A DNA stretch of 47,781 nt from an uncultured Massilia sp. GTDB lineage: Bacteria; Pseudomonadota; Gammaproteobacteria; Burkholderiales; Burkholderiaceae_D. The stretch lies in NCBI GenBank assembly GCA_913777025.1, contig CAJYQM010000102.1:1-47781 (forward strand), written 5' to 3'. The notes under the pieces were generated by a model. It saw only the letters and a program-made list of their open reading frames with translations. It made no database searches and was not told where the DNA came from. This document shows positions 18,540-43,548 of the stretch, piece by piece. The translations under genes and the position numbers were made by a program. Positions within the stretch are counted from its first letter, which is position 1. Every line of letters begins with the position of its first letter.

Positions 18540-18553
18540 GAAAGGAAACGAAA
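18540..18553 (-). promoter_or_regulatory. AgaR-like operator site 1 (receptor promoter)
   Basis: On the minus strand this reads TTTCGTTTCCTTTC, 13 of 14 matches to the TTTCRTTTYRTTTY core that I recall for E. coli AgaR sites. It resembles the perfect match before the DeoR regulator gene (26992-27005), which suggests that regulator controls the receptor. Confidence 0.6.
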
Positions 18554-18568
18554 CACAGTTTTCAATAG

Positions 18569-18582
18569 AAAAAACAACGAAA
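18569..18582 (-). promoter_or_regulatory. AgaR-like operator site 2 (receptor promoter)
   Basis: The minus strand reads TTTCGTTGTTTTTT, 12 of 14 matches to the same core. It lies 29 bases from site 1, nearly three helix turns, so regulator molecules could bind the same face. Confidence 0.42.
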
Positions 18583-18590
18583 CAAAATAA

Positions 18591-18608
18591 TTTCGAAAGC
18601 TTTCGAAA
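18591..18608. promoter_or_regulatory. Perfect 18-base palindrome before the receptor gene
   Basis: TTTCGAAAGCTTTCGAAA is identical to its reverse complement and sits just upstream of the likely promoter. It shares TTTCG half-sites with the nearby operators. It may be a second regulator's site (LacI-type operators are palindromes of similar length) or part of the AgaR-like array. Confidence 0.6.
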
Positions 18609-18677
18609 GTTTCTTGTGTTTTCTTTCTTGTTTTATTACCATTTCGTAACAATGAAAGTCATAACAGGAGATTGGCC

Positions 18678-21473
18678 ATGGGTAGCAGATTCGAAAACGG
18701 ACTTCGACGCAGCCTGATCGCTGCCGCGGTGGAGATGGCGCTGTGCGGCAGTGCCCTGGCGCAGGCCCAGGCGGCCGACCCGGCGGCTGCGCCCGTGGCC
18801 GGCGAGCAGGCGCCGCCGCAGTCCTCGGTGGTCGTGGTCACCGGCGCGCGCGCCGCGCTGGCGAAGTCCCTGGAACTCAAGCGCAATGCCGACGTGATCC
18901 AGGATTCGATCTCGGCAACGGAACTGGGCCGCTTCCCGGACGACAACGTCGCCGACTCGCTCACCCACATCACCGGCATCTCGGTTTCGCGCACCCGTGG
19001 CGGCGAAGGCCAGTACATCAGCGTCCGCGGCCTGGGCTCGGGCTACAACATCGTCACCCTCAACAAGCGCATCCTGGCGACCGACGGCGACGGCCGCGAC
19101 TTCGCCTTCGACGTGCTGCCGTCCGAAGTGATCAGCGGCGCGGACGTGATGAAATCGGCCGAGGCGGCGCAGATGGAAGGCAGCATCGGCGGCTCGGTCA
19201 ACCTGCGTTCGGCGCGCCCGCTGGACAACAAGGGCCAGCACGGTTCGCTGCGTTTCGAAGCCGAACGCAACGACCTGTCGAAGAAGAACGGCGGCAAGCT
19301 GTCCGGCGTGTTCAGCAAGACCTTCAACAACGACACCATGGGCGTGCTGGTCGGCGCCGTGCTGTCCAAGCGCAAGGTGCGCACCGATTCGCTCGGCTAC
19401 CAGACCTACAACGCCGATTCCCCGGGCAGCTTCGACGTCAACGGCGACGGCGCGATCGGCGCGGACGAGAGCAAGCTGCTGGCACCGTGCTGCATCTCCT
19501 TCGGCTCCATCTTCGAGGAAAAGAAACGCACGGCCCTGTCCGGCGCCTTCGAATGGAAGGTCAATCCGGCATTCCGGATGACGGTCGACGCGCTCGCGAC
19601 GCGCCTGGATTCGCCCCAGGTCGGCTACCAGCAGTCCTACTACATCGAGCACGCCCCGGGCCGCTGGTCCGACGTCGTCGTCAAGGACCACCTGATCACC
19701 AGCATGACGGTCAAGGACCTGATTCCCGAGATGTCCAACGTGACCACCGACCGCGTGGTCGACACCATGCAGTTCGGCTGGCGCGGCGAATGGAAGGTCA
19801 ACAACCGCCTGAAGCTGGCGGGCGACGTCTACCGCTCGACCTCGAAGCGCGATTCCGGCGGCAAGGACAACTTCGTGGTCGCCGGCATCGCCGGCAACAA
19901 TACCGGCTACTACCGCGCCAACAACGGCGCCTTTCCCGACATCCGCGTCCAGCTCCAGGACGGGCGCGACCTCGCCACCGAGCTGGCCGCCGGGCGCCTG
20001 GGCAACAAGGACTATGGTTTCCACTTCGCCGGCCTGACCGGCGTCGACATCAAGGACACCATCGACGGCGCCTCGCTGGACGGCCGCCTGGCCCTGGACG
20101 GCAAGTGGCACATCGACGGCTTCCAGTTCGGCGCCAGCACCACCGACCGCAAGAAGGACCGTAACTCGATCGGCAACGAGAAGAGCGGCGGCGCCTGCCA
20201 GTACTGCAACATGTACTCGACCACCTTCGCCTCGCTCGGCGCCGACGTCCTGCGTCCGATGACCCTGCCGAACTACATGCGCAACGCCGGCGGCAGCTTC
20301 CCGGGAAGCTTCGTGGCCTTCGACGTGCCGGCCTATTTCGCCGCGCTGCAGAAGCTGGACGGCAAGCCGATCCTGGATGCCGACGGCAACCCGACCGGCA
20401 AGACCTACAACGTGGCCAATTCGCAGCCGGTGTTCGTGCCCACCGATTCGTATTCGGTGCGCGAGAAGACCAGCACCCTGTACGGCCAGTTCGAGCTGTC
20501 GGGCGAGAACTGGAACGGCAACGTCGGCGCGCGCGTGGTGCGCACCAAGACCAATTCGCGCAGCGCGATCGACCGCATCGTGTCGATCTACGACCCGACC
20601 CCGGACATCCCGACCAGCAGCCCGAAGATCACCTACAGCGAAGCCGAACCGGTGTCGGAAGACGGCAAGTACACCAAGTTCCTGCCGTCGGCGAACTTCA
20701 GCTGGTGGGCACGCCAGGACTTCGTGGTGCGCGCCGCCGTGGCCAAGGTAATGGCCCGGCCCTCGCTCGACAAGCTGGCGCCGACCCGGACCGACAACAC
20801 GCTCGACCGCAGCTACCTGCTGAGCATCGTCGGCGACCCGAAGCTCAAGCCCACCGAAGCGGTGCAGCAGGACCTGTCGGTCGAGTGGTACTACCGCCCG
20901 AAATCGGCGATCACGGCCGCCATCTTCGCCAAGCAGGTCAAGAACTTCGTGACCTACCAGACCGACGAGCACGTGGACATCGGCGTGCCCGGCCAGCTGT
21001 ACACGGTGACCCATCCGGTCAACGGCGACAAGGCACGCGTGCGCGGCCTGGAACTCGGCGTGCAGCACCTGTTCGACAACGGTTTCGGCATCAACGCCAA
21101 GTTCGCCAAGACGCTGACCAAGGCCTACCAGGGCGGCGTCTACGTCGGCCAGCTCGAAGGGGTGGCCCCGACCGCTTCCTCGCTCGGCTTTTTGTACGAG
21201 AAGAACGGCATCAACGCCTCGATCTCGTTCGACTACACCGGCGAATACACGGCAAGCACCAACGTGCTGGCCGGCTACCCGAACAAGGTCGATTCGCTGA
21301 CCTGGGTGACGGCGTCGGCGTCCTGGGACATCACGAAAAACGTCACGCTGTTTGTCGAGGGCAAGAACCTGAGCGACGCCGTGATGCGCTCGAACCTGGG
21401 ACGCGGCGACGCCCTGTACGGCTTCGAGACCTGGGGCCGTACCTACGCCGGCGGCATGAGCGTGAAGTTCTGA
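18678..21473 (+). CDS. TonB-dependent receptor (TonB-Xanth-Caul subfamily)
   Basis: A 931-residue outer-membrane beta-barrel for energy-dependent uptake of a large ligand, here predicted to be an oligosaccharide. There is a signal peptide at about 1-30. The TonB box region (VVVVTGARAAL) is followed by the plug, with FPDDNVADSLTHITGISVSR and ISVRGLGSGYNIVTLN; the barrel then runs to a terminal Phe (GGMSVKF). This FPDDNVADSL/TLN type is the subfamily of carbohydrate receptors common in Xanthomonas and Caulobacter. There is no STN domain. The ATG at 18678 has AGGAG seven bases upstream; an in-frame TTG two codons earlier was rejected. It is the first gene of the sugar locus, and the permease gene starts 10 bases after its stop. 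Confidence 0.94.
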   Translation: MGSRFENGLRRSLIAAAVEMALCGSALAQAQAADPAAAPVAGEQAPPQSSVVVVTGARAALAKSLELKRNADVIQDSISATELGRFPDDNVADSLTHITGISVSRTRGGEGQYISVRGLGSGYNIVTLNKRILATDGDGRDFAFDVLPSEVISGADVMKSAEAAQMEGSIGGSVNLRSARPLDNKGQHGSLRFEAERNDLSKKNGGKLSGVFSKTFNNDTMGVLVGAVLSKRKVRTDSLGYQTYNADSPGSFDVNGDGAIGADESKLLAPCCISFGSIFEEKKRTALSGAFEWKVNPAFRMTVDALATRLDSPQVGYQQSYYIEHAPGRWSDVVVKDHLITSMTVKDLIPEMSNVTTDRVVDTMQFGWRGEWKVNNRLKLAGDVYRSTSKRDSGGKDNFVVAGIAGNNTGYYRANNGAFPDIRVQLQDGRDLATELAAGRLGNKDYGFHFAGLTGVDIKDTIDGASLDGRLALDGKWHIDGFQFGASTTDRKKDRNSIGNEKSGGACQYCNMYSTTFASLGADVLRPMTLPNYMRNAGGSFPGSFVAFDVPAYFAALQKLDGKPILDADGNPTGKTYNVANSQPVFVPTDSYSVREKTSTLYGQFELSGENWNGNVGARVVRTKTNSRSAIDRIVSIYDPTPDIPTSSPKITYSEAEPVSEDGKYTKFLPSANFSWWARQDFVVRAAVAKVMARPSLDKLAPTRTDNTLDRSYLLSIVGDPKLKPTEAVQQDLSVEWYYRPKSAITAAIFAKQVKNFVTYQTDEHVDIGVPGQLYTVTHPVNGDKARVRGLELGVQHLFDNGFGINAKFAKTLTKAYQGGVYVGQLEGVAPTASSLGFLYEKNGINASISFDYTGEYTASTNVLAGYPNKVDSLTWVTASASWDITKNVTLFVEGKNLSDAVMRSNLGRGDALYGFETWGRTYAGGMSVKF

Positions 21474-21483
21474 GGACGCGACG

Positions 21484-22401
21484 ATGGATACGACGACGAT
21501 GGGCGCGAACCTGGCCGGGCGCCCGGCCGGCTGGCTCGGCTACGCGCTGGCCACCACGCTGCTGTGGGGCGTGTGGGGCGCATTCGCCGGGCTGCCGACC
21601 CAGTACGGCTTTCCCGAAACCCTGGTGTACGTGGTCTGGGCGCTGACGATGGTGCCGCCGGCGCTGGTCGTGCTGGCCCGCGCCGGCTGGCGCGTGCGCC
21701 GCGATGCCCGCTCGGTGGCCTACGGCCTGGCCATCGGCCTGCTCGGCGCCGGCGGCCAGATGGTGCTGTTCTATGCGGTGAAGGCGGGGCCCACCTACCT
21801 GATCTTCCCGCTCATCTCGCTGTCGCCGGTGATCACCATCGCCTTGTCCTTCCTGTTCCTGCGCGAGCGCACCGGTTGGCTCGGCACGGCCGGCATCGTG
21901 CTGGCGATCTGCGCGCTGCCGCTGTTCGACTACACGCCGGGGCAGGCCGCGCAATCCTACGGGCTGTGGTTCGTGCTGGCGCTGGGCGTGCTGGCGGCCT
22001 GGGGCCTGCAGGCGTATTTCATCAAGCTGGCCAACGCCAGCATGGATGCCGAGAGCATCTTCTTCTACATGACCGCGAGCGCGCTGCTGGTGGTGCCGGT
22101 GGCGCTGGCCATGACCGACTTTTCGCAGCCGATCAACTACGGCCCGTCGGGACCGCTGCTGGCTGCCGCCACCCAGGTGCTGAACGCGATCGGCGCGCTG
22201 ACCCTCGTCTACGCCTTCCGCCACGGCAAGGCGCTGGTGGTCTCGCCCCTCGTCAACGCCGGCGCACCCTTGCTCACCACCGTGATCGGCATGGCGCTGG
22301 CGGCCACGGTACCCGGCGGCTACAAGCTGGCCGGCATCGGCCTGTCGCTGGCGGCGGCCCTGCTGCTGGCGCTGCAGCCGGACGACAACGGCCAGGCCTG
22401 A
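21484..22401 (+). CDS. EamA/DMT-superfamily permease, putative amino-sugar transporter
   Basis: A 305-residue inner-membrane protein with about ten hydrophobic helices in two EamA-like halves. The opening TTLLWGVWGAFAGLP and the conserved FLFLRERTGW at the end of the first half are typical; helix 10 ends in a short polar tail. DMT carriers include sugar uptake systems (glucose/ribose, rhamnose) as well as exporters. Position between the outer-membrane receptor and the catabolic enzymes argues that it carries the sugar across the inner membrane, since no PTS, MFS or ABC genes are in the locus. TGAGGA from the preceding stop serves as ribosome site. Confidence 0.86.
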   Translation: MDTTTMGANLAGRPAGWLGYALATTLLWGVWGAFAGLPTQYGFPETLVYVVWALTMVPPALVVLARAGWRVRRDARSVAYGLAIGLLGAGGQMVLFYAVKAGPTYLIFPLISLSPVITIALSFLFLRERTGWLGTAGIVLAICALPLFDYTPGQAAQSYGLWFVLALGVLAAWGLQAYFIKLANASMDAESIFFYMTASALLVVPVALAMTDFSQPINYGPSGPLLAAATQVLNAIGALTLVYAFRHGKALVVSPLVNAGAPLLTTVIGMALAATVPGGYKLAGIGLSLAAALLLALQPDDNGQA

Positions 22402-22421
22402 ACCCATCAAGGAGTCTCTAC

Positions 22422-23726
22422 ATGCACTATTTACTGGATCTGGTCCGGCGCCACAAGGCCGGCGAAGCGGTGGGCATCCACTCGGTCTGCTCGGCCCACC
22501 CGCTGGTGATCGAGGCCGCGGTGGAAACGGCGAAGGAACGCGGCCTGCCGCTGCTGGTCGAGGCCACCTCGAACCAGGTCAACCAGGACGGCGGCTACAC
22601 CGGCATGACCCCGGACGCCTTCCGCGACTTCGTGCACGGCATCGCCGACCGCGCCGGCCTGGCGCGTTCGCAGGTGCTGCTGGGCGGCGACCACCTCGGC
22701 CCGAACGCCTGGCAGCACCTGCCGCCCGGGGAAGCGATGGCGCGCGCCGACATCCTGATCGAACGCTACGTGGCGGCCGGTTTCCGCAAGATCCACCTGG
22801 ACTGCTCGATGTCCTGCGCCGGCGATCCGGTGCCGCTGGCGGACGAGATCGTGGCAGCGCGCGCCGCGCGCCTGTGCGCCGTGGCCGAACGCGCCTGGCA
22901 GGCCGCCGGCGGCGAAGCCCCGGTCTACATCGTCGGCACCGAAGTGCCGGTGCCGGGCGGCGCCCACGAGGACTTGCAGGAACTGGCGGTGACGACCCCG
23001 CACGCCGCCCGCGCCACGATCGAGGCGCATCGCGCCGCCTTCGCCGAAGCCGGCCTGGAAGCGGCCTGGCCGCGCGCGATCGGCCTGGTGGTGCAGCCGG
23101 GCGTCGAGTTCGACCACCACAAGGTGATCGACTACCGTCCCGACAAGGCGCGGGCGCTGAGCCGCTTCATCGAGGAGGTGCCGGGCATGGTGTTCGAAGC
23201 CCATTCGACCGACTACCAGACCGCGGCCCGGCTGGCCGAGCTGGTGCGCGACCATTTCGCGATCCTGAAGGTCGGGCCTGGGCTGACCTTCGCGCTGCGC
23301 GAGACCCTGTGGGCGCTGGCGGACATCGAGCACGAGATGAACGGCGCGGAAGACGGCGCCGGCTTCAAGGCGACGGTGCTGGAAGTGATGCGCGCCGAGC
23401 CGGAGTACTGGCGCAAGTACTACCACGACGCCGGCCGCGCGCGCTTCGACCAGCAGTACAGCCTCAGCGACCGCATCCGCTATTACTGGCCGCATCCGGC
23501 CATCCAGGCCGCCCAGGCCCGCCTGCTGGCCAGCCTGGAACGCACGCCGGCGCCGCTGACCCTGCTGAGCCAGTACCTGCCGGCCCAGTACGAGGCCGTG
23601 CGCGAGGGGCGCTTGCGTAACCGGCCGGCCGATCTGATCAAGGAAGGCGTGGCCCGCGTGCTGCGCCAGTACATGGACGCCTGCACGGCGGGCGCCGCAA
23701 CGAAGGAGCTGGAACCATGCTTGTAG
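22422..23726 (+). CDS. GatZ/KbaZ-like protein, tagatose-(bis)phosphate metabolism
   Basis: A 434-residue TIM-barrel protein of the GatZ/KbaZ family. Landmarks are VGIHSVCSAHPLVIEAAVE, LLVEATSNQVNQDGGYTGM, GGDHLGPNAW, KIHLDCSMSCAGDP and QPGVEFDHHKVIDY. In E. coli, KbaZ supports the catalytic aldolase subunit KbaY. No KbaY and no tagatose-6-phosphate kinase is encoded here. A GatZ-family protein in Agrobacterium is known as a D-tagatose-6-phosphate 4-epimerase, and that activity would complete this pathway to fructose-6-phosphate; here this is inference. AAGGAG precedes the ATG. It overlaps the next gene by 10 bases. Confidence 0.92.
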   Translation: MHYLLDLVRRHKAGEAVGIHSVCSAHPLVIEAAVETAKERGLPLLVEATSNQVNQDGGYTGMTPDAFRDFVHGIADRAGLARSQVLLGGDHLGPNAWQHLPPGEAMARADILIERYVAAGFRKIHLDCSMSCAGDPVPLADEIVAARAARLCAVAERAWQAAGGEAPVYIVGTEVPVPGGAHEDLQELAVTTPHAARATIEAHRAAFAEAGLEAAWPRAIGLVVQPGVEFDHHKVIDYRPDKARALSRFIEEVPGMVFEAHSTDYQTAARLAELVRDHFAILKVGPGLTFALRETLWALADIEHEMNGAEDGAGFKATVLEVMRAEPEYWRKYYHDAGRARFDQQYSLSDRIRYYWPHPAIQAAQARLLASLERTPAPLTLLSQYLPAQYEAVREGRLRNRPADLIKEGVARVLRQYMDACTAGAATKELEPCL

Positions 23727-24898
23727 CACAACGTGAAATACTGGGTATCGCCGAAGACCGCCTCGACCAGGCCGGCGCCGGCCTGACGGCGCGCGAGATC
23801 GCGCAGCAGGCCGGGGTGTGGGGCCGCATCGACGCCCTGGTGGCGCAGCGCCGCGCCGCCCTCGACGCCTTCCTGGCGCCGCTGCTGGCGCGGCCGGAAC
23901 TGCGCATCGTGCTGACCGGGGCCGGCACCTCGGCCTTCATCGGCGAATGCCTGGCGCCGGCGCTGCTGGGCCGCGGCCTGCGCGCCGAGGCGCTGCCGAC
24001 CACCGACATCGTGTCCGGACCGGCATGCTTCCTGCAGCCGGGCGTGCCGACCCTGCTGGTGTCCTTCGCCCGGTCCGGCAGCAGCCCGGAAAGCGTGGCC
24101 GCGGTGGCGCTGGCCGACCAGCTGGTCGGCGAGGTGTACCACCTGGTCGTTACCTGCAACAGCGCCGGCGAGCTGTATCGCGCGGCCCAGGGCCGTGCCA
24201 ACGTGTTCGCGCTGCTGCTGCCGGACGCCACCCACGACCGCGGCTTCGCCATGACCACCAGCTTCACCTCGATGCTGCTGGCGGCCGCGCTGGCCTTCGG
24301 CGTGATGGCGCCCGGCGCCAGCAGCGTTCCGGCCGGCGCCGCGCGGGCCGCGCTCGATGCCTCGCTGCCGCTGCTGCGCGACCTGGTGGCGCGCCGCTTC
24401 CGGCGCGTGGTCTACCTGGGCAGCAACGAACTGCGCGGCCTGGCCCGCGAAGCCTCGCTCAAGCTGCTCGAGCTGACCGACGGCCAGGTGGTCGCGCTGT
24501 TCGACTCGCCGCTCGGCTTCCGCCACGGCCCCAAGACCGTCGTCGATGCCGACACGCTGGTGGTGGTGCTGCTGTCGAACGACGCGCATGCGCGCCGCTA
24601 CGACCTCGACCTGTTGAACGAACTGCGCAGGGACGGCAGCGCCGGCCGCGTGCTGGCGCTGGGCGGGCAGGCCGGCGGCCTGGAGCCGGGCGACCTGGTG
24701 TTCGAGGGCATGGAGGCGGCCGGCGACCTGGCGCTGGCCCTGGCCAGCATCGTGCTGTGCCAGTCGTTCGCGCTGCTGGCGTCGCTGGAACTGGGCCTGC
24801 GCCCGGATACCCCGAGCCGCACCGGCACCGTCAACCGCGTGGTGCGCGGCGTGACCATCTATCCATTCGAGGGAGACGCCCATGTTCCTCGGGATTGA
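23717..24898 (+). CDS. agaS: AgaS-like SIS-domain ketose-aldose isomerase/deaminase
   Basis: A 393-residue protein with two SIS domains. VLTGAGTSAFIGECLAPAL opens the first and SFARSGSSPESVAA is its phosphosugar loop; RRVVYLGSNELRGLAREASL opens the second, with ELTDGQVVALFDSPLGFRHG. This is the AgaS/TagI type, which converts galactosamine-6-phosphate to tagatose-6-phosphate and ammonia. The specificity is inferred from the GatZ-like and sugar-kinase neighbours. The glutamine-amidotransferase domain of GlmS is absent, ruling out synthesis of glucosamine-6-phosphate. AAGGAG lies upstream inside the GatZ-like gene. It overlaps the kinase gene by 17 bases. Confidence 0.9.
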   Translation: MLVAQREILGIAEDRLDQAGAGLTAREIAQQAGVWGRIDALVAQRRAALDAFLAPLLARPELRIVLTGAGTSAFIGECLAPALLGRGLRAEALPTTDIVSGPACFLQPGVPTLLVSFARSGSSPESVAAVALADQLVGEVYHLVVTCNSAGELYRAAQGRANVFALLLPDATHDRGFAMTTSFTSMLLAAALAFGVMAPGASSVPAGAARAALDASLPLLRDLVARRFRRVVYLGSNELRGLAREASLKLLELTDGQVVALFDSPLGFRHGPKTVVDADTLVVVLLSNDAHARRYDLDLLNELRRDGSAGRVLALGGQAGGLEPGDLVFEGMEAAGDLALALASIVLCQSFALLASLELGLRPDTPSRTGTVNRVVRGVTIYPFEGDAHVPRD

Positions 24899-25847
24899 CG
24901 GCGGCGGCACCAAGACCGCCTTCGCATTGGTCGACGGCGACGGCATCGTGCGCGCCCGCCACGAGGACGGCGGCACCTATTACGTCGAGACCGGCATGGA
25001 GGGTGCCGCGGCGGTGCTGGCGCGCGGCTGCCGCGCGGTGCTGGACGCGGCCGGCATCGAGGCCGCCGGCGTGAACTTCGCCTTCTTCGGCATGCCGGCC
25101 TACGGCGAGGACCGCGCCGCGCAAGCGGTGCTGGAAACGCTGCCGCGCGCCATCCTGGGCCACGATCGCTACCTGTGCGGCAACGACATGGTGTGCAGCT
25201 GGGCGGGCTCGCTGGCCTGCGCCGACGGCATCAGCGTCATCGCCGGCACCGGTTCGATGGCCTACGGCGAAGCCGGCGGCAAGCGTGCGCGCGCCGGCGG
25301 CTGGGGCGAGCTGTTCAGCGACGAGGGCTCGGCCTTCTGGATCGCGCGCGAAGGCTTGAGGCTGTTCTCGCGCATGAGCGACGGCCGCGCGCCGCGCGGG
25401 CCCCTGCATGCGCTGGTGCGCACGCGCCTGGAACTGCAGGACGACCTCGACGTCTGCGGCGTCGTCTACGGCCAGATGAACGGCGACCGCAGCCGGGTGG
25501 CGCAGCTGGCGCGCCTGGTCACCGACGCGGCCGCGCTGGGCGACCGCCAGGCCCAGGCCATCCTCGACGCCGCGGCGGCCGAGCTGGCGGAGATCGTGGA
25601 CGCCGTGTCGGTGGCGCTGGGCGCGGTCCCGGATGACGGGCTGGCAGTGTCGTACACGGGCGGCCTGTTCGGCGCCGACGGTCCGCTGCGCGCACCGTTC
25701 GCGCAGGCCCTGGCGGCGCGCGCGGGCCGCTACCGCTTGACGCCGCCGCGCCTGGCGCCGGTGCTGGGCGCGGCCCTGTACGCCGCACGCAGCGCCGGCA
25801 CGCCGCTGGACGAATCGGCCATCGCACGACTGGCGTGCGCCGCTTGA
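24882..25847 (+). CDS. BadF/BadG-family amino-sugar kinase
   Basis: A 321-residue ASKHA-fold kinase of the BadF/BadG/BcrA family, to which N-acetylglucosamine kinases belong. GIDGGGTKTAFALVDGDG is the phosphate-1 loop; VIAGTGSMAYG is the phosphate-2 loop; GGWGELFSDEGSAFWIAREG is the sugar-kinase signature; and YTGGLFGADGPL is the adenosine site. In this context it probably phosphorylates N-acetylgalactosamine or galactosamine at O6 after uptake, as no PTS is present. It overlaps the AgaS-like gene by 17 bases, with GAGGGAGA as ribosome site, so translation is likely coupled. Confidence 0.9.
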   Translation: MFLGIDGGGTKTAFALVDGDGIVRARHEDGGTYYVETGMEGAAAVLARGCRAVLDAAGIEAAGVNFAFFGMPAYGEDRAAQAVLETLPRAILGHDRYLCGNDMVCSWAGSLACADGISVIAGTGSMAYGEAGGKRARAGGWGELFSDEGSAFWIAREGLRLFSRMSDGRAPRGPLHALVRTRLELQDDLDVCGVVYGQMNGDRSRVAQLARLVTDAAALGDRQAQAILDAAAAELAEIVDAVSVALGAVPDDGLAVSYTGGLFGADGPLRAPFAQALAARAGRYRLTPPRLAPVLGAALYAARSAGTPLDESAIARLACAA

Positions 25848-25878
25848 TGCCGCGCCCCACCGACAAGGAGACACGAGC

Positions 25879-26976
25879 ATGCGCTTCACCCTGATGCATT
25901 CGATCCTGGCCGCGCTTTTGGCGGTCCCTTTGGCCGCCGCAGCCGCGGACAGCTACACGATGGCCGACTTCGACAAGGTGCCGAAGATCGACGCCCACCT
26001 GCACCTGCACGGCGCCAGCCAGGATGCCTACCTGGCGCTGGCGCGGCGCGACAACTTCCGCGCGCTGACCATCAACGTCGACTATCCCGACTTCCCGCCG
26101 CTGGAAACCCAGCGCCGCGTCGCCAGCGCCGCCGCCCACGCCCACCCGGAGCAGCTGGCCTGGGCCGCCACCTTCGCGACGAAGGATTTCGAGCGCCCGG
26201 GCTGGAGCCAGGCCACGCTGAAGGACCTGGACGGCGCGCTGGCCGACGGCGCCGTCGGCGTCAAGGTCTGGAAGAACATCGGCATGGAATTGCGCGACCG
26301 CCAGGGCAAGCTGGTGATGGTCGACGATCCGCGCCTGCAGCCGGTGTTCGCCGGCCTGGAACAGCGCGGCGTGATGGTGCTCGGCCACCAGGGCGAGCCG
26401 CACAACTGCTGGCTGCCGGTCGAGCAGATGACGGTGAATAACGACCGCGAATATTTCAGCAAGCATCCGGCCTACCACATGTACAAGCACCCGGAAATGC
26501 CCAGCTACGAGCAGCAGATGGCGGCGCGCGACCACTTGCTGGCCCTGCACCCGCGCCTGCGCTTCACCGGCGTTCACATGGCCTCGCTCGAATGGGACGT
26601 GGACCGGCTGGCGCGCTTCCTCGACCAGCACCCCGGCGTCAACGTCGACGTGGCGGCGCGCATCGGCCAGATCCAGTTCCAGTCGCAGCGCGATCCCAAG
26701 AAAGTGCACGACTTCTTCGTCAAGTACCAGGACCGCCTGATGTACGGCACCGACCTGGCGCAGTCGGAGGGGCAGAGCGACGCCGATTTCGTCAAGGACC
26801 TGGACACGGTGTGGCGGCGCGACTGGCGCTACTTCAATACGGCGGACAGCCTGGCCGTGCCGGAACTGGACCGGCCGGTGCGCGGCCTGGCGCTGCCGCG
26901 CGCGGTGGTCGACAAGCTGTACCGCGTCAACGCCGAGAAGGCGTATCCGCGGGCCTGGCGCAAATCCGGCGTGTGA
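25879..26976 (+). CDS. Exported amidohydrolase family protein (PF04909 type)
   Basis: A 365-residue metal-dependent TIM-barrel hydrolase with a Sec signal peptide at about 1-22. The metal site can be followed: His40 and His42 in DAHLHLHG, Lys129 in GVKVWKNIG, His170 in LGHQGEP, His233 in GVHMASLEWD and Asp292 in YGTDLA. This is the Amidohydro_2 branch, not NagA, so calling it the missing N-acetylgalactosamine-6-phosphate deacetylase is not justified. A periplasmic location also excludes action on a cytoplasmic phosphosugar. It might remove a substituent from the imported glycan. AAGGAG precedes the ATG; the gene is 31 bases after the kinase. Confidence 0.86.
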   Translation: MRFTLMHSILAALLAVPLAAAAADSYTMADFDKVPKIDAHLHLHGASQDAYLALARRDNFRALTINVDYPDFPPLETQRRVASAAAHAHPEQLAWAATFATKDFERPGWSQATLKDLDGALADGAVGVKVWKNIGMELRDRQGKLVMVDDPRLQPVFAGLEQRGVMVLGHQGEPHNCWLPVEQMTVNNDREYFSKHPAYHMYKHPEMPSYEQQMAARDHLLALHPRLRFTGVHMASLEWDVDRLARFLDQHPGVNVDVAARIGQIQFQSQRDPKKVHDFFVKYQDRLMYGTDLAQSEGQSDADFVKDLDTVWRRDWRYFNTADSLAVPELDRPVRGLALPRAVVDKLYRVNAEKAYPRAWRKSGV

Positions 26977-26990
26977 ACAGGAAGGCCGAT

Positions 26991-27006
26991 CTTTCGTTTC
27001 ATTTCG
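26991..27006 (+). promoter_or_regulatory. AgaR-like operator before the DeoR-family regulator gene
   Basis: Bases 26992-27005 read TTTCGTTTCATTTC, a full match to the TTTCRTTTYRTTTY core I recall for AgaR. The site covers the expected -35 position of the promoter whose -10 is at 27021-27026, so binding should block transcription of the regulator and the glycosidase genes behind it. Confidence 0.68.
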
Positions 27007-27020
27007 TAGTTGGCCTCCTG

Positions 27021-27026
27021 TATGAT
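27021..27026 (+). promoter_or_regulatory. Likely -10 element of the regulator promoter
   Basis: TATGAT differs by one base from TATAAT. The best -35 is a weak TTCATT at 26998-27003 with a 17-base spacer, inside the operator. The start would be near 27033 and the ATG is at 27059. Confidence 0.5.
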
Positions 27027-27058
27027 CTGGCCCAAAACGATGGCGATGAAAGATCGGG

Positions 27059-27877
27059 ATGAAGAACAAGAATCAAACGGAAACGAAAGCTTCGACGGCA
27101 GCCGATGCCGAGCTGCTGGTCGAGGAAAGGCGCCGCCGCATCCGTGAAATGGTGAACGAGCGCGGACGGGTCACGGTGACCGAGCTGGCGGCAATGTTCG
27201 ACATCTCGCAGGTCACCGCGCGCAACGACCTGAACGCGCTGTCCGAGATCGGCGCCGTGGTGCGCACGCGCGGCGGCGCGCTGGCCCAGCGCGACGACGA
27301 GGACTTGCCGATCGGCGTCAAGCAGAACCTGCGCCGGGCCGAGAAGGTGCGCATCGCCGAGGCGGCCGTGCAGCTGATCGGCGAGGGCCAGACCATCGTG
27401 CTCGACTCCGGCACCACGACCGCGGAAATCGCCAAGCAGATCCGCGGGCTGAAGCTGCAGTCGGTGAACGTGATCACGAACGCGCTGAACATCGCCGTGC
27501 TGCTGGCCGGCGCGCCGCACGTGAGGCTGGTGATGCTGGGCGGCGTGCTGCGCCCGAGTTCGTATTCGCTGGGCGGGCCGCAGGCGGAAGCGGCCCTGCA
27601 GGGACTGCACGCCGACATCCTGTTCCTCGGCTTCGACGGCCTGGATCCGGACATCGGCGTGATGACCCCGCACCTGCTGGAAGCGCGCCTGAACTCGCGC
27701 ATGCTGGAAATCGCGCGCAGCGTGGTCGCGGTAGGCGATTCGTCCAAGATCGGGCGGCGCAGCCTGTCCGTGATCGCGAAGATCGAACAGGTCGACCGCA
27801 TCATCACCGACGCCGGCGCGGCGCCGGAAGCGGTCGAGGCGCTGCGTTCGCGCGGCGCGCAAGTCGTGCTGGTGTAG
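27059..27877 (+). CDS. DeoR-family transcriptional regulator, AgaR-like
   Basis: A 272-residue repressor. The N-terminal winged helix-turn-helix (RRRIREMVNERGRVTVTELA, then QVTARNDLNALSEIGAVVRT and RGGA) is of DeoR type, with the RNDL recognition helix seen in AgaR. The C-terminal DeoRC effector domain has LDSGTTTAEIAKQI, VNVITNALNIAVLL, GGPQAEAALQ and FLGFDG, typical of proteins that bind phosphorylated sugars. The inducer is probably tagatose- or galactosamine-6-phosphate. It likely represses itself and the receptor operon through the TTTCG-type sites. A strong GC hairpin (27886-27909) separates it from the glycosidase genes. Confidence 0.9.
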   Translation: MKNKNQTETKASTAADAELLVEERRRRIREMVNERGRVTVTELAAMFDISQVTARNDLNALSEIGAVVRTRGGALAQRDDEDLPIGVKQNLRRAEKVRIAEAAVQLIGEGQTIVLDSGTTTAEIAKQIRGLKLQSVNVITNALNIAVLLAGAPHVRLVMLGGVLRPSSYSLGGPQAEAALQGLHADILFLGFDGLDPDIGVMTPHLLEARLNSRMLEIARSVVAVGDSSKIGRRSLSVIAKIEQVDRIITDAGAAPEAVEALRSRGAQVVLV

Positions 27878-27885
27878 GGATGGCG

Positions 27886-27909
27886 GACGCCGGCCCTGGC
27901 CGGCGCGTC
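27886..27909 (+). terminator. GC-rich hairpin between the regulator and glycosidase genes
   Basis: GCCGGC (27889-27894) and GCCGGC (27899-27904) pair around CCTG, with GAC/GTC extending the stem. No T tract follows, so it is more likely a processing or RNA-stability structure than a terminator. It would fit lower or separate expression of the regulator and the enzymes. Confidence 0.35.
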
Positions 27910-27937
27910 ATCCTTACAACGACATGACAGGAGACTT

Positions 27938-30025
27938 ATGGATCAGCATGACGAACGCCGCCGCACCCTGCTGCAGTGGCTGGCCGGGACGGCCGTGGCC
28001 TCGGCCGTCGGCCCCGCCGCCGCCCGCGTGGCCGGGGGCGCGCAGGGCAGGGACGTGGCGCGCATCGGCGACGCCGCCATGGCGCTGGAATTCGACGGCC
28101 AGCTGCAGTGCCGCGTGCTGGACAAGCGCGCCGGCGCCGCCACCGCCGTCACCGCCTTCGCGCCGAGCGAGCGCCTGCGGCTGTCGAACGGCCGCTGGGT
28201 AGAACGCTTCGCGCTCGGCGCGCAGGCGGCCGACCGGCTCGAAGGGCCGCACGGTCCCGGCATCCGCCACCGTTTCACCGGCACGGCGCCGGAAGGGATC
28301 GAAAAGACGGTCGCCGTCACCTTCTACGAGCGCCATCCGGGCTTCGCCGTGGTCCGCGTCTCCTACCGCAACATGGGTAAAAAGCCGCTGCTGGTGTCGG
28401 CCTGGGCCAACAGCGCGCACACGCTGCGTCCCGCGGCCGGCCGCAAGCCGGCCTTCTGGACCTATTCCGGCGCCACCCATCCGGACCGGCGCGACTGGGT
28501 GCAGCCGGCCTACCTCGGCTTCGAACAGCGCAACTTCATGGGCATGAACGGCTCCGACTACGGCGGCGGCACGCCGGCGGTGGACGTCTGGCAGCGCAGC
28601 GGGGGCCTGGCCGTCGGCCACCTCGACACGGTCCCGCGCCTGGTCGCGCTGCCGGTCAAGGCGGACGAGGACGGCGTCTCGCTCGCGGTCGAATACGAAA
28701 ACGAGGCCACGCTGCAGCCGGGCGAGACGCTCGACACCCTGGAGACCTTCCTGGCCGTGCACGGCGGCGATTATTTCGCGCCGCTGGACCGCTTCCGCAA
28801 GCTGATGGCCGAGCGCGGCCTGGCGGCGCCGGACTGCCCGGAGGATTGCTACGAGCCGATCTGGTGCGCCTGGGGCTACGAACGCGATTTCACGGTCCCG
28901 CTGATGGTCGGCACCCTCAAGAAGGCCAAGGAACTCGGCCTGGAATGGGCGGTGCTGGACGACGGCTGGCAGAACAACGAAGGCGACTGGAAGCTCGACA
29001 AGAAGAAATTCCCGAACGGCGAGGCCGACATGCGCGGCCTGGTCGGCGCCATCAAGGACGCCGGCCTGAAGGCGCGCCTGTGGATCACGCCGCTGGCGGT
29101 CGATCCGGGTTCGGACCTGCTGCACGACCATACCGACATGCTGCTGCTGGACGCGGCGGGCGCGCCGCAGCTGATCAGCTGGTGGAACAGCTTCTACCTG
29201 TGCCCGGCCTACGAACCGACCATCGAGATGACGCGCGCCTGGATCCGCAAGATCTTCGGCGAGTGGGGCTACCAGGGCATCAAGATCGACGGCCAGCACT
29301 TGAACGGCGTGGCGCCCTGCCACAACCCGGCCCACAAGCATGCGCGCCCCGAGGAATCGTTCGAGAAGCTGCAGGACTTCTGGAAGATGGTGTACGACAC
29401 CGCGCGCGAGGTGAACCCGGATGCCGTGGTCGAGCTGTGCCCCTGCGGCACCTCGTATGCCTTCCACAACTTCCCCTACATGAACCAGGCCCCGGCCTCG
29501 GACCCGCTGTCGTCCTGGCAGGTGCGCCACAAGGGCAAGACGCTCAAGGCGCTGATGGGCCCATCGGCGCCGTACGCGGGCGACCACGTGGAATTGAGCG
29601 ACGGCGGCCAGGACTTCGCGTCGACGGTCGGCATCGGCGCCGTGCTGTCGACCAAGTTCACCTGGCCGGTCGATCCGAAGCCGAAGGACAGCTTCCTGCT
29701 GACGCCCGAACGCGAAGTGAAGTGGCGCAAGTGGATCGGCACCTACCGCGAGAAGATGCTGCCGAAAGGCGTCTACCGCGGCGAGCTGTACGACATCGGC
29801 TTCGACAAGCCGGAAGGCCATGCGATCGAAAAGGAGGGCCGCATGTATTTCGCCTTCTATGCGCCGCGCTGGGACGGCCCGGTCGAACTGCGCGGCCTGG
29901 GCCCGGGACGCTGGCGCCTGCGCGACTACATCGAGGGGCGCGAGCTGGGCGAGGTCGAGGGCGCGAAGGCGAGCCTGCCGCTGCGCTTCGAGCACGCGCT
30001 GCTGATCGAGGCCGTGCGGGCATGA
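27938..30025 (+). CDS. GH36-type alpha-galactosidase / alpha-N-acetylgalactosaminidase, Tat-like signal
   Basis: A 695-residue glycosidase of the melibiase/GH36 family. Residues 7-40 form a Tat-like signal (RRRTLLQWLAG). A beta-sandwich occupies about 45-290 and the catalytic barrel about 300-590. WAVLDDGWQ (Asp341-342), GIKIDGQHLN with the predicted nucleophile Asp451, and the predicted acid/base Asp522 in QAPASDPLSSW are visible. The usual CxSGGGR strip reads CPCGTSYAFHN, so this is a divergent branch and the substrate may not be plain alpha-galactose. GH36 includes alpha-N-acetylgalactosaminidases, which would fit the amino-sugar genes. Its stop overlaps the start of the GH27 gene (ATGA), so the two are translationally coupled. 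Confidence 0.88.
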   Translation: MDQHDERRRTLLQWLAGTAVASAVGPAAARVAGGAQGRDVARIGDAAMALEFDGQLQCRVLDKRAGAATAVTAFAPSERLRLSNGRWVERFALGAQAADRLEGPHGPGIRHRFTGTAPEGIEKTVAVTFYERHPGFAVVRVSYRNMGKKPLLVSAWANSAHTLRPAAGRKPAFWTYSGATHPDRRDWVQPAYLGFEQRNFMGMNGSDYGGGTPAVDVWQRSGGLAVGHLDTVPRLVALPVKADEDGVSLAVEYENEATLQPGETLDTLETFLAVHGGDYFAPLDRFRKLMAERGLAAPDCPEDCYEPIWCAWGYERDFTVPLMVGTLKKAKELGLEWAVLDDGWQNNEGDWKLDKKKFPNGEADMRGLVGAIKDAGLKARLWITPLAVDPGSDLLHDHTDMLLLDAAGAPQLISWWNSFYLCPAYEPTIEMTRAWIRKIFGEWGYQGIKIDGQHLNGVAPCHNPAHKHARPEESFEKLQDFWKMVYDTAREVNPDAVVELCPCGTSYAFHNFPYMNQAPASDPLSSWQVRHKGKTLKALMGPSAPYAGDHVELSDGGQDFASTVGIGAVLSTKFTWPVDPKPKDSFLLTPEREVKWRKWIGTYREKMLPKGVYRGELYDIGFDKPEGHAIEKEGRMYFAFYAPRWDGPVELRGLGPGRWRLRDYIEGRELGEVEGAKASLPLRFEHALLIEAVRA

Positions 30026-31770
30026 GGCGCCTCACCGTCACCGCCGCCCTGGCGCTCGCCTTCGGCACGGCCGCGGCCCAGGCGCCCACGCCGCCGATGG
30101 GCTGGAATCCGTGGAACGCCTTCCATACCGAAGTGGACGAGGCGAAGATCATGGCCAACGCCGAGGCGCTGCGCCGCACCGGCCTGGCCGATGCCGGCTA
30201 CCGCTACGTCAACATGGACGACGGCTGGTGGCGCACGCGCCGGCCGGACGGGCGCATCGAAGTGCGCACCAGCATGTTCCCGAGCGGCGCGCTGCCCGAC
30301 GGCAGCACCAGCATGCGGCCCTTCGTCGACCGCCTGCACGCGCTCGGGTTCAAGGCCGGCATCTACAGCGAGATCGGCCGCAATGCCTGCTCCCAGGCCT
30401 GGGACCGCCATTCGCCCAACCTGCCCGAGGGGAATACGGCGGCGCGCGAGATCGGCACCTATGGCCACCAGGCCGCCGACGTCGCCCTGCTGCTGGGCGA
30501 GTGGGGATTCGACTACATGAAGGTCGACGCCTGCGGCCTGGCCGACTTCACGCCGGAACAGCCCTGGGTGCGCGACGGTACCCACCGCGTCTTCGGCCCG
30601 TGGATCGTGCGCGGCAAGCCGGATGCGGAAAGCGCCAGGCGGGTCGAGGCGCTGTATGCCGGCCTGCGCAAGCAGATCGACGCCGTGCGCCCGGACGGCG
30701 GCGTCGTGCTGTCGATCTGTGCCTGGGGCGAAGCACGCGTGGCCAACTGGGCCGGCCGCTACGGCAGTTCGTGGCGCACCAGCCCGGACATCGAGCCGAC
30801 CTGGAAGTCGATGCTGCTCAACTTCGACAGCGCCATCAAGCGCCCGCTGTATGCAGGCCCCGGCCACTGGAACGATCCGGACATGCTGGAACTCGGGCAT
30901 GGCGAGTTCGACGAGAAGCACCTGGCCGAGGCGCGCGCCCACATGTCGCTGTGGGCCATCGCCGCGGCCCCGCTGGTGCTGGGCGCGGATCTCACCAGGA
31001 TGCCGCAGGCGCTGATCGACATCGCCGGCAACCGCGAGGTGATCGCGATCGACCAGGATCCGGCCGGCCACCAGGGCGTGACCGTGATGCGCGCCGGCGA
31101 CACCCAGGTAGTAGCGCGCACCCTGGCGGCATCGGGGCAGAAGGCGGTGGCGCTGGTCAACCGCGGCAGCCGGCCGCGCACCGTGACGCTGCCGCTGGCG
31201 CGGCTGCAACTGGCGCCAGCCGCCACCGTGCGCGATGTGTGGACCAAGCGCGAGCGCGGCGTCGACGGCGTGATCAGCGTCGAGCTGGCGCCGCGCGAGA
31301 CGGCACTGCTGCTGGTGCGCGGCCGGCCGCTGCGGCCCGGGCATGCGTATGTGAGCGAGCTGCCGGCGCGGGTGCGCGTGCTGGAAGACGGCAGCGCCGT
31401 GCTCTCGACGGCGCAGGCGGCCGGCTGGGTGCCGGTCCAGGCCAACGCGGCGCCGTCCGGCAAGCCGCTGACGCTGCGGGGCGCCGCCGTCGCCGAAGGC
31501 ATCGGCGTGCTGGCCGGCTCGCGCCTGGCCCTGCGCCTGGACGGCGAGTTCGCGCGCTTCCGCAGCCGCGTCGGCGCGACCACGGCGACCCGGGGCGCGC
31601 TGGTCTATCGCGTGCTTGCGGACGGCAAGCCGGTGTTCGAGCACGGCGGCCCCGGACCGGTCGACATCGACGTGGCGGTCGACGGCGTCAAGACCCTGGA
31701 ACTGGTGACCCGGGGCGAACCGGGCAGGCTGGTGGAGGTGGCCTGGGCGGGGGCGGCACTGCTGCGGTAG
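30022..31770 (+). CDS. GH27 alpha-galactosidase-like enzyme with NPCBM-type domain
   Basis: A 582-residue exported glycosidase: Sec signal at about 1-20, GH27 barrel at about 22-345, a small beta-sandwich to about 435, and a C-terminal NPCBM-like carbohydrate-binding domain. The nucleophile is Asp169 (YMKVDACG) and the acid/base Asp256 (WRTSPDIEPTW). The CEWG motif, whose Glu contacts the sugar 2-hydroxyl in alpha-galactosidases, reads CAWG here (Ala234). Human alpha-N-acetylgalactosaminidase also replaces that Glu with a small residue, making room for the 2-acetamido group. This supports a GalNAc-type substrate but is not proof. The start is the ATGA overlapping the GH36 stop. Confidence 0.88.
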   Translation: MRRLTVTAALALAFGTAAAQAPTPPMGWNPWNAFHTEVDEAKIMANAEALRRTGLADAGYRYVNMDDGWWRTRRPDGRIEVRTSMFPSGALPDGSTSMRPFVDRLHALGFKAGIYSEIGRNACSQAWDRHSPNLPEGNTAAREIGTYGHQAADVALLLGEWGFDYMKVDACGLADFTPEQPWVRDGTHRVFGPWIVRGKPDAESARRVEALYAGLRKQIDAVRPDGGVVLSICAWGEARVANWAGRYGSSWRTSPDIEPTWKSMLLNFDSAIKRPLYAGPGHWNDPDMLELGHGEFDEKHLAEARAHMSLWAIAAAPLVLGADLTRMPQALIDIAGNREVIAIDQDPAGHQGVTVMRAGDTQVVARTLAASGQKAVALVNRGSRPRTVTLPLARLQLAPAATVRDVWTKRERGVDGVISVELAPRETALLLVRGRPLRPGHAYVSELPARVRVLEDGSAVLSTAQAAGWVPVQANAAPSGKPLTLRGAAVAEGIGVLAGSRLALRLDGEFARFRSRVGATTATRGALVYRVLADGKPVFEHGGPGPVDIDVAVDGVKTLELVTRGEPGRLVEVAWAGAALLR

Positions 31771-39980: not shown

Positions 39981-40265
39981 ATGAGCAAAGAATGGCCCCT
40001 GTGGGAAGTCTTCATCCGCAGCCAGCACGGACTCGCCCACAAGCATGTCGGCAGCCTGCACGCCCCGGATGCGGAAATGGCGATCAACAACGCGCGCGAC
40101 GTCTACACCCGCCGCAACGAAGGCGTGTCGATCTGGGTGGTGCGCGCCGCCGACATCGTCGCCTCCAGCCCGGCCGACAAGGATGCGCTGTTCGAGCCGT
40201 CCAACAGCAAGGTCTACCGCCACCCGACCTTCTTCCCGATGCCGGAAGAAGTCAAGAACCTGTGA
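39981..40265 (+). CDS. paaB: 1,2-phenylacetyl-CoA epoxidase subunit PaaB
   Basis: A 94-residue structural subunit that bridges PaaA-PaaC pairs in the epoxidase. WPLWEVFIRSQHGLAHKHVG and NARDVYTRRNEGVSIWVV are diagnostic, as is the C-terminal KVYRHPTFFPMPEEVKNL-like end. GGAGA precedes the ATG. It is 33 bases after paaA and eight bases before paaC. Confidence 0.96.
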   Translation: MSKEWPLWEVFIRSQHGLAHKHVGSLHAPDAEMAINNARDVYTRRNEGVSIWVVRAADIVASSPADKDALFEPSNSKVYRHPTFFPMPEEVKNL

Positions 40266-40273
40266 GGTTGGCC

Positions 40274-41035
40274 GTGGACGCGAACCAAGCCAAATTCGAC
40301 TATCTGCTGCGCCAGGGCGACAACGCCCTGATCCTGTCCCAGCAACTGTCCCAGCTGTGCGGCAAGGGCCCGGCACTGGAAGAAGACATGGCGCTGACCA
40401 ACGTCGCCCTCGACCTGCTCGGCCAGACCCGCATGTGGCTGAGCTATGCCGGCGAACTGGAAGGGCAGGGCCGCGACGAGGACCGCCTGGCCTACCTGCG
40501 CGACACCCGCGACTTCCGCAACGTGCTGCTGGTCGAACAGCCGAACGGCGACTACGCCCAGGTCATGGTGCGCCAGTTCTTCTTCGACACCTGGCACTAC
40601 TTCCTGATGCGCGGCCTGCTGGCCTCCAGCGACAAGCGCATCGGCGAGATCGCGGAAAAATCGATCAAGGAAGTCACCTACCACCTGCGCCGCAGCGGCG
40701 ACCTGGTGGTGCGCCTGGGTGATGGTACCGACGTCAGCCACGCCAGGATGCAGGCCGCCGTCGACGAACTCTGGACGTATGCGGGCGAGATGTTCATCTA
40801 CGACGAGGTCGACCAGGCCATGCAGGCCCAGGGCGTCGCCCCGGATGCCGGACAGCTGCGCGCCGCCTTCCTGAACCACGTCACCGAGGTGTTCGAGGAA
40901 GCGACCCTGACCGTGCCTTCGCCGGACAGCTACATGCAGCTCGGCGGCAAGCAGGGCCGGCACAGCGAGCGCCTCGGCTACATCCTGGCCGAGATGCAGT
41001 TCCTGCAGCGCGCCTATCCGGGCGTCGAGTGGTGA
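40274..41035 (+). CDS. paaC: 1,2-phenylacetyl-CoA epoxidase subunit PaaC
   Basis: A 253-residue ferritin-like partner of PaaA without a competent diiron centre. LLRQGDNALILSQQLSQLCG, FFFDTWHYFLMRGLL, SIKEVTYHLRRSGDLVVRLG and GRHSERLGYILAEMQFLQR are conserved. The start is a GTG at 40274 with GAGG six bases upstream; no ATG is available near the conserved N-terminus. The frame is open further upstream through paaB but out of context. Confidence 0.94.
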   Translation: MDANQAKFDYLLRQGDNALILSQQLSQLCGKGPALEEDMALTNVALDLLGQTRMWLSYAGELEGQGRDEDRLAYLRDTRDFRNVLLVEQPNGDYAQVMVRQFFFDTWHYFLMRGLLASSDKRIGEIAEKSIKEVTYHLRRSGDLVVRLGDGTDVSHARMQAAVDELWTYAGEMFIYDEVDQAMQAQGVAPDAGQLRAAFLNHVTEVFEEATLTVPSPDSYMQLGGKQGRHSERLGYILAEMQFLQRAYPGVEW

Positions 41036-41040
41036 GCGTG

Positions 41041-41565: not shown

Positions 41566-41569
41566 ACCC

Positions 41570-42649: not shown

Positions 42650-42667
42650 TACCGTTAGCTTAAAGAC

Positions 42668-42695
42668 CGTCGTTCCCGCCTCCGCGGGAACGACG
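42668..42695. repeat. Short REP-like palindrome between paaE and paaG
   Basis: CGTCGTTCCCGC (42668-42679) and GCGGGAACGACG (42684-42695) form a perfect 12-bp stem around CTCC. Related TTCCCGC/GCGGGAA hairpins are scattered through many beta- and gammaproteobacterial genomes. No T tract follows. It may stabilise the upstream paaABCDE message. Confidence 0.75.
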
Positions 42696-42753
42696 AGCAA
42701 ACAAAAGAATAATCGTCGCGTCTAATAAGAGGCCGGACAAAGGAGGAGACACC

Positions 42754-43545: not shown

Positions 43546-43548
43546 GCC

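Follow-up and report, generated by a model that had tools for sequence, protein, structure and literature searches.

A conserved, patchily distributed gene cluster of an uncultured Massilia species predicted to degrade alpha-linked galactosamine without a phosphotransferase system or a tagatose-bisphosphate aldolase

The closest described systems to the gene cluster reported here are the aga/gam system of Escherichia coli, the aga system of Shewanella, and an enzyme pair of Flavonifractor plautii. The cluster is located on a stretch of 47,781 nucleotides from an uncultured Massilia sp. (contig CAJYQM010000102.1, assembly GCA_913777025.1), which is called the window throughout. E. coli aga/gam and the window cluster have in common AgaS-like, KbaZ-family and AgaR-like proteins and, as predicted for the window, the conversion of galactosamine-6-phosphate (GalN-6-P) to tagatose-6-phosphate (tagatose-6-P) (PMC3668189). 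For E. coli, it has been shown genetically that AgaS is a GalN-6-P deaminase/isomerase (PMC3668189). The Shewanella system (AgaP, AgaK, OmpAga) uses a permease and a kinase instead of a phosphotransferase system (PTS), and it contains an outer-membrane protein and AgaS (PMC2996990, PMC12118421); the window has counterparts of all of these, with an AgaS-like protein in the place of AgaS. A review of N-acetylgalactosamine (GalNAc) catabolism from 2025 describes the further metabolism of tagatose-6-P via a kinase and an aldolase and treats GatZ/KbaZ as an aldolase subunit (PMC12118421). The F. plautii pair consists of a GalNAc deacetylase and a galactosaminidase (PMC11762096).

The window cluster comprises nine genes on the + strand between positions 18678 and 31770, which are separated by 10-82 bp or overlap by 4-17 bp. 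The signal peptides given below were read by eye from the N-termini, without a signal predictor.

18678..21473, + strand: TonB-dependent outer-membrane receptor (TIGR01782, 554 bits versus a cut-off of 310; Pfam plug and barrel)
21484..22401, + strand: EamA/DMT inner-membrane permease (PF00892, E = 4.5e-19)
22422..23726, + strand: GatZ/KbaZ family protein (PF08013, E = 5.7e-192; TIGR02810, 652 bits versus a cut-off of 569)
23717..24898, + strand: AgaS-family SIS protein (TIGR02815, 459 bits, E = 1e-137, cut-off of 529 unreached)
24882..25847, + strand: BadF-type kinase (BcrAD_BadFG, PF01869, E = 1.3e-50)
25879..26976, + strand: Amidohydro_2 metallohydrolase with a Sec-like signal (PF04909, E = 4.1e-9)
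27059..27877, + strand: DeoR-family repressor, AgaR-like (best match AgaR NF040755, 249 bits versus a cut-off of 260)
27938..30025, + strand: GH36 protein with a Tat-like signal (Melibiase, PF02065)
30022..31770, + strand: GH27 protein with an NPCBM domain and a Sec-like signal (Melibiase_2, PF16499; PF08305)

The gene list, the order on one strand, and the coordinates had been given by an initial annotation of this DNA, and they proved correct, with the profile matches listed above. The locus is a conserved, patchily distributed module that is predicted to serve the catabolism of alpha-linked amino-galactose. With a probability of about 0.62 it represents a variant of the aga pathway that is of the galactosamine (GalN) type and needs neither a PTS nor an aldolase, a value that leaves the deacetylation step by the amidohydrolase out of account. 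Compared to E. coli aga/gam, the window cluster lacks genes for a PTS, AgaA and KbaY and has a kinase and a DMT permease instead, and its operon includes signal-bearing glycosidases and a TonB receptor. Compared to Shewanella aga, it lacks AgaA and contains GH36/GH27 and an exported Amidohydro_2 protein, and its DMT permease and BadF-type kinase may differ in family from AgaP and AgaK. The statement of the initial annotation that the set is unlike described aga clusters is borne out for E. coli and Shewanella. With the F. plautii pair the window shares a GH36 protein of the galactosaminidase group and, as a candidate, the logic of deacetylation followed by cleavage; the GH36 proteins, to which the sequence comparison is confined, are 27-28% identical.

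In the proposed pathway, the TonB receptor would take alpha-linked GalN or GalNAc oligosaccharides into the periplasm, where the exported Amidohydro_2 protein would strip N-acyl groups, which is the least certain step. The Tat-exported GH36 enzyme would free GalN from the non-reducing end, perhaps with the help of GH27. The DMT permease is predicted to import GalN, the BadF-type kinase would form GalN-6-P, and AgaS would deaminate and isomerise GalN-6-P to tagatose-6-P and ammonia. GatZ alone would then epimerise tagatose-6-P at C4 to fructose-6-P, which would make a tagatose-6-P kinase and a bisphosphate aldolase unnecessary, and the AgaR-like repressor would bind to operators with CGAAAG repeats. 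The roles of the receptor, the amidohydrolase and the permease are read from gene context, those of the other proteins from homologues.

The conservation of the gene set was analyzed by a scan of one genome per species with the window GH36 protein as the single query, which led to 38 loci. They span Massilia, Duganella, Pseudoduganella, Roseateles/Pelomonas, Brevundimonas, Asticcacaulis, Sphingomonas, Sphingopyxis and Novosphingobium as well as four less precisely named records. Presence was counted with tblastn, because the simple codon-usage gene caller misses genes (none were called in locus L031 and two in L033). The genes for GH36, the amidohydrolase, the DMT permease, GatZ, AgaS and the kinase are all present in 35 of the 38 loci. 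In one exception (L019) gatZ, agaS, the kinase gene and a partial amidohydrolase gene are located elsewhere in the same genome, and in the other two the missing gene (DMT in L031, kinase in L034) would fall beyond the end of the sequence stretch. Because this six-gene core recurs in 35 of 38 loci, the arrangement is not due to chance. The individual counts among the 38 loci are 37 each for the amidohydrolase, gatZ and agaS, 36 each for the DMT permease, the kinase and DeoR, 34 for the TonB receptor, and 19 for GH27. A close relative of the receptor (79-87% identity) is found in ten loci, while elsewhere the matched receptor is just 21-46% identical, and in 15 loci the identity of DeoR reaches 60% or more. 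By these identities, the receptor and DeoR are the looser members of the set. When the called genes were clustered, no gene unlike the nine of the window occurred in more than four loci.

The gene order is not fixed. In sphingomonads the amidohydrolase gene is divergent from a GH36-DMT-gatZ-agaS-kinase block, and in Pelomonas a deoR-kinase-agaS-gatZ-DMT block is located on the opposite strand. An association that is kept through rearrangement is strong evidence for a joint function. The distribution is patchy. A GH36 search in 399 genomes of the window's order returned four weak matches besides the genome of the window itself. For loci without GH36, the sampling went through AgaS alone, in 97 genomes of the family. 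GH36 is present in three of these, all of which are among the nine genomes with AgaS, and four of the six additional AgaS genomes were inspected.

GatZ would catalyse the last step of the proposed route. The alignment of the window protein with E. coli GatZ (2fiq) covers 416 residues, of which 222 (53%) are identical, and all seven named active-site residues are kept, i.e., C23, E47, D90, H91, E174, H261 and K283, which equal Cys20, Glu44, Asp87, His88, Glu171, His257 and Lys279 of E. coli. For six of the seven, identity holds in 33 or more of 35 aligned rows, and at the Cys position each row has either Cys or a gap. It has been reported that E. coli GatZ and KbaZ turn fructose-6-P into tagatose-6-P and are thus C4-epimerases, and the reverse direction has also been reported for GatZ (PMC11907403).

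No gene for a tagatose-bisphosphate aldolase is present within the window cluster. A GatY/KbaY aldolase above the cut-off was found in none of 21 locus-bearing genomes, the completeness of which has not been established, and seven of them (Brevundimonas and six sphingomonads) did not contain any GatY/KbaY match at E <= 0.001. LacD was also unmatched in all 21 genomes (the window's own genome was outside that search). The best GatY/KbaY match in the window's own genome, which is 83.5% complete and consists of 542 contigs, reached 156 bits versus a cut-off of 444. Because neither a GatY/KbaY aldolase above the cut-off nor LacD was found in the 21 genomes, GatZ probably works alone as a tagatose-6-P 4-epimerase. 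The lack of an aldolase partner in the cluster and of one above the cut-off in the tested genomes makes it most likely that the route from GalN via GalN-6-P and tagatose-6-P to fructose-6-P proceeds by C4-epimerisation. The view that GatZ can act only in support of a GatY/KbaY aldolase was rejected, because no partner was found above the cut-off in any of the 21 genomes and LacD was unmatched in all of them. An older proposal, cited in PMC12118421, regards AgaZ itself as a tagatose-6-P kinase. The simplest explanation of this naturally recurring arrangement would be that GatZ is an enzyme in its own right.

The GH36 protein points to the sugar that would be released. Its nearest solved proteins are 8x1b, 9awt and 9ayu, i.e., the F. 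plautii alpha-D-galactosamine galactosaminidase FpGalNase (E = 1.7e-77 to 1.7e-75), and the next GH36 structures, which are titled alpha-galactosidases, begin at E = 3.5e-11. A Foldseek search with the predicted GH36 model (mean pLDDT 74.6) also had FpGalNase in its top three rows (E = 5e-56 to 5e-54), with the best other GH36 protein at 4e-32. Seven of nine FpGalNase residues named in PMC11762096 (W317, D346, D347, W387, K461, C513 and D532) are identical in the window protein. Galactosaminidase activity is likely, and the protein is predicted to be a periplasmic exo-alpha-galactosaminidase. Its N-terminus carries a twin-arginine-like signal (RRRTLLQWLAG, seen by eye), and 26 of 36 called GH36 relatives have a double arginine among their first 30 residues. 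The GH27 protein has an alanine at position 234, where the rice alpha-galactosidase has Glu. This position varies in the relatives (A, T, N, L), and Glu is absent in 18 of 18 rows. However, two other solved GH27 enzymes also lack that Glu, and therefore the position decides nothing. Near GH27, three Roseateles/Pelomonas loci share a gene (L036:14824-16575), and a scan of one of the proteins detected the domains DUF4874, DUF4832 and ricin-B lectin; this protein could be an uncharacterised glycosidase for the same glycan.

Two cytoplasmic enzymes precede GatZ in the proposed route. The window AgaS is identical to 3c3j at 177 of 363 aligned residues (49%) and is predicted to be a GalN-6-P deaminase/isomerase. 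The BadF-type kinase has a weak match to the N-acetylglucosamine (GlcNAc) kinase model NagK_SO3507 (76 of 370 bits), and its nearest relatives in the PDB are an N-acetylmuramic acid/GlcNAc kinase, a hexokinase and GlcNAc kinases. It is predicted to phosphorylate GalN, and possibly also GalNAc. A clear match of the SIS protein or the GatZ-like protein to another pathway, which had been named in the initial annotation as a finding that would speak against its proposal, was not found.

The exported amidohydrolase is a constant member of the set. Its predicted model (pLDDT 89) has the fold of PF04909 enzymes. In 31 sequences H170, H233 and D292 are invariant and H40 and H42 are present in at least 90%, and these five are metal-site residues of the superfamily. 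The listed fold neighbours are mostly decarboxylases, lactonase-type enzymes and uncharacterised PF04909/COG3618 proteins; sugar deacetylases are not among them, and their absence from this listing excludes nothing. Going by its family, the enzyme is no less likely to be a lactonase or some other hydrolase than a deacetylase, and we give a slightly better than even chance to the explanation that the enzyme is such a hydrolase acting on a side product or a substituent. This explanation concerns only the second step of the route, and its odds are separate from those of the other alternatives. Three observations argue against it, namely, the presence of the amidohydrolase in 37 of 38 GH36 loci, its recurrence in a differently built gene set of Pelagibacterium, and its absence in the one case in which the polymer-cutting family GH114 is present.

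The Pelagibacterium sp. H642 set is located on a plasmid (L060:1143-11702) and comprises GatZ, DeoR, a BadF-type kinase, a short SIS protein, GH4, an ABC transporter and an amidohydrolase homologue, which is 28% identical to the window protein and has no evident signal peptide. A search with this homologue in 385 genomes of the class of genome G107 returned, at E <= 1e-15, only G107 itself, and close relatives thus seem to be rare. From these two cases, it seems that the amidohydrolase follows the compartment of the glycosidase.

The case with GH114 is Burkholderia arboris. On a replicon of 1.26 Mb (locus L058), the genes for the DMT permease, GatZ, AgaS, the kinase and DeoR are divergent from a GH36 gene with 57% identity, and the next gene on the same strand after GH36 encodes a member of the endo-alpha-1,4-polygalactosaminidase family GH114 (PF03537, E = 7e-87). 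No amidohydrolase homologue was found in the 26-kb locus, and the replicon is not among the six plasmid records matched by the amidohydrolase (the chromosomes of the strain were not searched). It is expected that GH114 enzymes select deacetylated stretches of galactosamine polymers (PMC12054363). Cleavage of the polymer at deacetylated sites may therefore make an amidohydrolase dispensable, and its absence beside GH114 fits to a deacetylating role, as one case. That the window protein is a glycan N-deacetylase acting before cleavage remains a tentative assignment, less likely than not to hold. Equally tentative is the wider proposal that the exported Amidohydro_2 protein founds a new family of glycan N-deacetylases and forms, together with an environmental branch of GH36 galactosaminidases, a route of deacetylation, cleavage and import for alpha-GalNAc/GalN exopolysaccharides outside the gut, followed by a three-enzyme, aldolase-free path (kinase, AgaS, GatZ) to fructose-6-P, with the same order realised in the cytoplasm in the ABC/GH4 version of Pelagibacterium.

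Fungal galactosaminogalactan, Pel-like polysaccharide and mucin-type glycans had initially been considered as sources of the glycan. Fungal galactosaminogalactan or a Pel-like polymer is plausible, and nothing in the window itself proves it. The B. arboris GH114 speaks indirectly for such alpha-1,4 galactosamine polymers; against this stands that a search of 26 genomes or records, which was confined to GH114, detected this family solely on the B. arboris replicon, where it occurs in three copies. The assumption that a GH114 polymer-cutting enzyme belongs to the glycan system of the window was rejected as too strong, because GH114 was not found in its genome. In Pseudoalteromonas sp. THAF3 a GH114 gene adjoins a pel operon (L069:9881-20693), which links this GH114 type to Pel-like polymers.

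Several points weigh against the GalN-type, aldolase-free reading. All enzymatic assignments are predictions; the direct observations are the families, the conserved co-location, the conserved GatZ residues and the absence of an aldolase partner above the cut-off. None of the other 25 searched genomes, that of the window included, has GH114. GatZ scores below the narrower NCBIfam models (638 of 707 bits for KbaZ, 541 of 579 for GatZ), and AgaS (459 of 529) and the AgaR-like repressor (249 of 260) are also under their cut-offs. Fourteen of the 21 genomes have a class II aldolase match that stays below the cut-off; it is probably the ordinary fructose-bisphosphate aldolase and might also cleave tagatose bisphosphate. 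In addition, the aldolase searches were confined to GatY/KbaY and LacD, and tagatose-6-P kinases were not searched for. The activity of GH36 is likely and not assured, because its identity to FpGalNase is just 27-28%. The nucleophile D463 of FpGalNase is opposite Q453 in the gap placement of HMMER, and the KxD motif (KID/KGD) matches only when the gap is moved; D451 is shared by 35 or more of 37 rows. Y464 of FpGalNase, which its authors suggested to be related to specificity (PMC11762096), is not conserved, and the window protein has a two-residue loop insertion. The GH36 model is mediocre; several of its stretches have a pLDDT below 50, among them 502-511 with C503 and 516-539 with D522, and the model is too uncertain near the active site for judging the C2 pocket. 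Furthermore, GH36 is not indispensable to the cluster. One family genome (G020, L083:144-7671) has a TonB receptor, GH27, DMT permease, GatZ and AgaS of the window type at a contig edge (46%, 33%, 63%, 57% and 54% identity, respectively) and no GH36 match, and GH27 may be the glycosidase there.

The remaining points concern the form in which the sugar enters the cell, and they can be judged by comparison with another type of cluster. Three other Oxalobacteraceae genomes of the family, one of which (G056) belongs to the window's genus, contain an AgaS/GatZ/DeoR cluster with other partners (44-48%, 53-54% and 41-42% identity to the window proteins, respectively). A NagA-like protein, a ROK kinase, an MFS sugar porter and GH31 are present in all three (L080, L081 and L082), and GH109 in two of the three stretches; families were assigned by profile scans for L080 and partly for L081, and by tblastn for the rest. 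The cluster in the window's genus (L080:1766-13889) encodes AgaS, ROK kinase, GatZ, DeoR, a NagA-like protein, MFS, GH31 with NPCBM, and GH109, and no tagatose-bisphosphate aldolase was recognised among its scanned genes. GH109 is known for alpha-N-acetylgalactosaminidases. The NagA-like/ROK/MFS/GH31 set suits GalNAc, whereas the window set, in which the deacetylase, the kinase, the porter and the glycosidases are replaced and no NagA or AgaA is present among the nine genes, suits GalN that enters the cytoplasm already deacetylated.

An alternative is a pathway of the Shewanella type, in which GalNAc is released, imported and phosphorylated by the BadF-type kinase and a NagA encoded elsewhere removes the acetyl group in the cytoplasm, while the exported amidohydrolase does something else. 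The window's own genome has a NagA above the cut-off, NagA can substitute for AgaA in E. coli (PMC3668189), and the weak NCBIfam match of the kinase is to a GlcNAc kinase. A NagA-like gene adjoins the window-type cluster in four Duganella loci out of 40, and it is followed by an MFS gene in both that were examined. In some Duganella (L092:3378-7049) a block of DeoR (41% identity to that of the window), NagA-like and MFS genes is divergent from the cluster, as if both pathways had been merged. A single AgaS per genome was found in all eight locus-bearing genomes checked, including the four Duganella. Because each of these four has a NagA-like gene beside the cluster and just one AgaS, GalNAc may also enter the window-type pathway, and the kinase may take GalNAc as well. 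However, no NagA-like match (E 1e-8) was found in the other 36 loci (stretches of up to about 26 kb), GH36 belongs to the galactosaminidase group, whereas the GalNAc-type clusters carry GH31 and GH109, and B. arboris has GH114 as a neighbour. We therefore regard the GalNAc pathway as unlikely. The initial annotation had proposed a complete route for an alpha-linked GalN or GalNAc glycan from the outer membrane to glycolysis. Its amino-galactose part is upheld by the proximity of GH36 to FpGalNase and by the conserved set; as to the sugar, de-N-acetylated GalN is favoured over GalNAc because of the galactosaminidase-like GH36, the lack of NagA/AgaA in the cluster, and the presence of such parts in the sister clusters of the GalNAc type.

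A plain alpha-galactoside pathway, in which GH36/GH27 free galactose, the kinase forms galactose-6-P, and AgaS acts as a galactose-6-P/tagatose-6-P isomerase ahead of GatZ, is very improbable, since, although most of the listed solved GH36 and GH27 relatives are alpha-galactosidases and PDB entries related to AgaS carry titles of putative ketose/aldose isomerases, GH36 is far nearer to FpGalNase than to alpha-galactosidases, E. coli AgaS has the genetically shown function cited above, the best match of the regulator is AgaR, and, as a weak point, GH27 lacks the rice Glu.

No described system with this gene set was found among literature titles and abstract openings (subscription papers were largely outside the search). 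As far as these show, the gene combination, an environmental FpGalNase-like GH36 and the constant amidohydrolase are new, while the individual reactions are those of known families. The locus offers environmental relatives of the enzyme that is used for the conversion of blood from A to O, and a candidate for a new deacetylase family. GH36 relatives together with a deacetylase could help to break galactosamine-containing biofilm polymers, e.g., fungal galactosaminogalactan and Pel.

A putative binding site of the AgaR-like repressor was found upstream of the receptor gene, within a run of CGAAAG/CTTTCG half-sites:

18594..18609, + strand: predicted operator, direct repeat CGAAAG-CTTT-CGAAAG

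Four half-sites are present in 168 bp, a number that was reached in none of 5000 dinucleotide shuffles, with the half-site having been picked after viewing the sequence. The exact CGAAAG spaced repeat was not found in sphingomonad or Roseateles/Pelomonas loci, and upstream occurrences are confined to Oxalobacteraceae loci and B. arboris. With a gap of 3-5 bp, there are 13 occurrences of the repeat, spread over 11 of 40 loci. Nine precede a TonB receptor or DMT gene and one precedes deoR, two are located between the divergent DMT and GH36 genes of B. arboris, and one is inside deoR of L044.

Downstream of the nine-gene set, the gene at 39992-41035 encodes a PaaA/PaaC-type phenylacetate protein and the one at 45687-47051 an AMP-binding, CoA-ligase-like protein, which suggests that a phenylacetate degradation cluster is located there (39992-47051).

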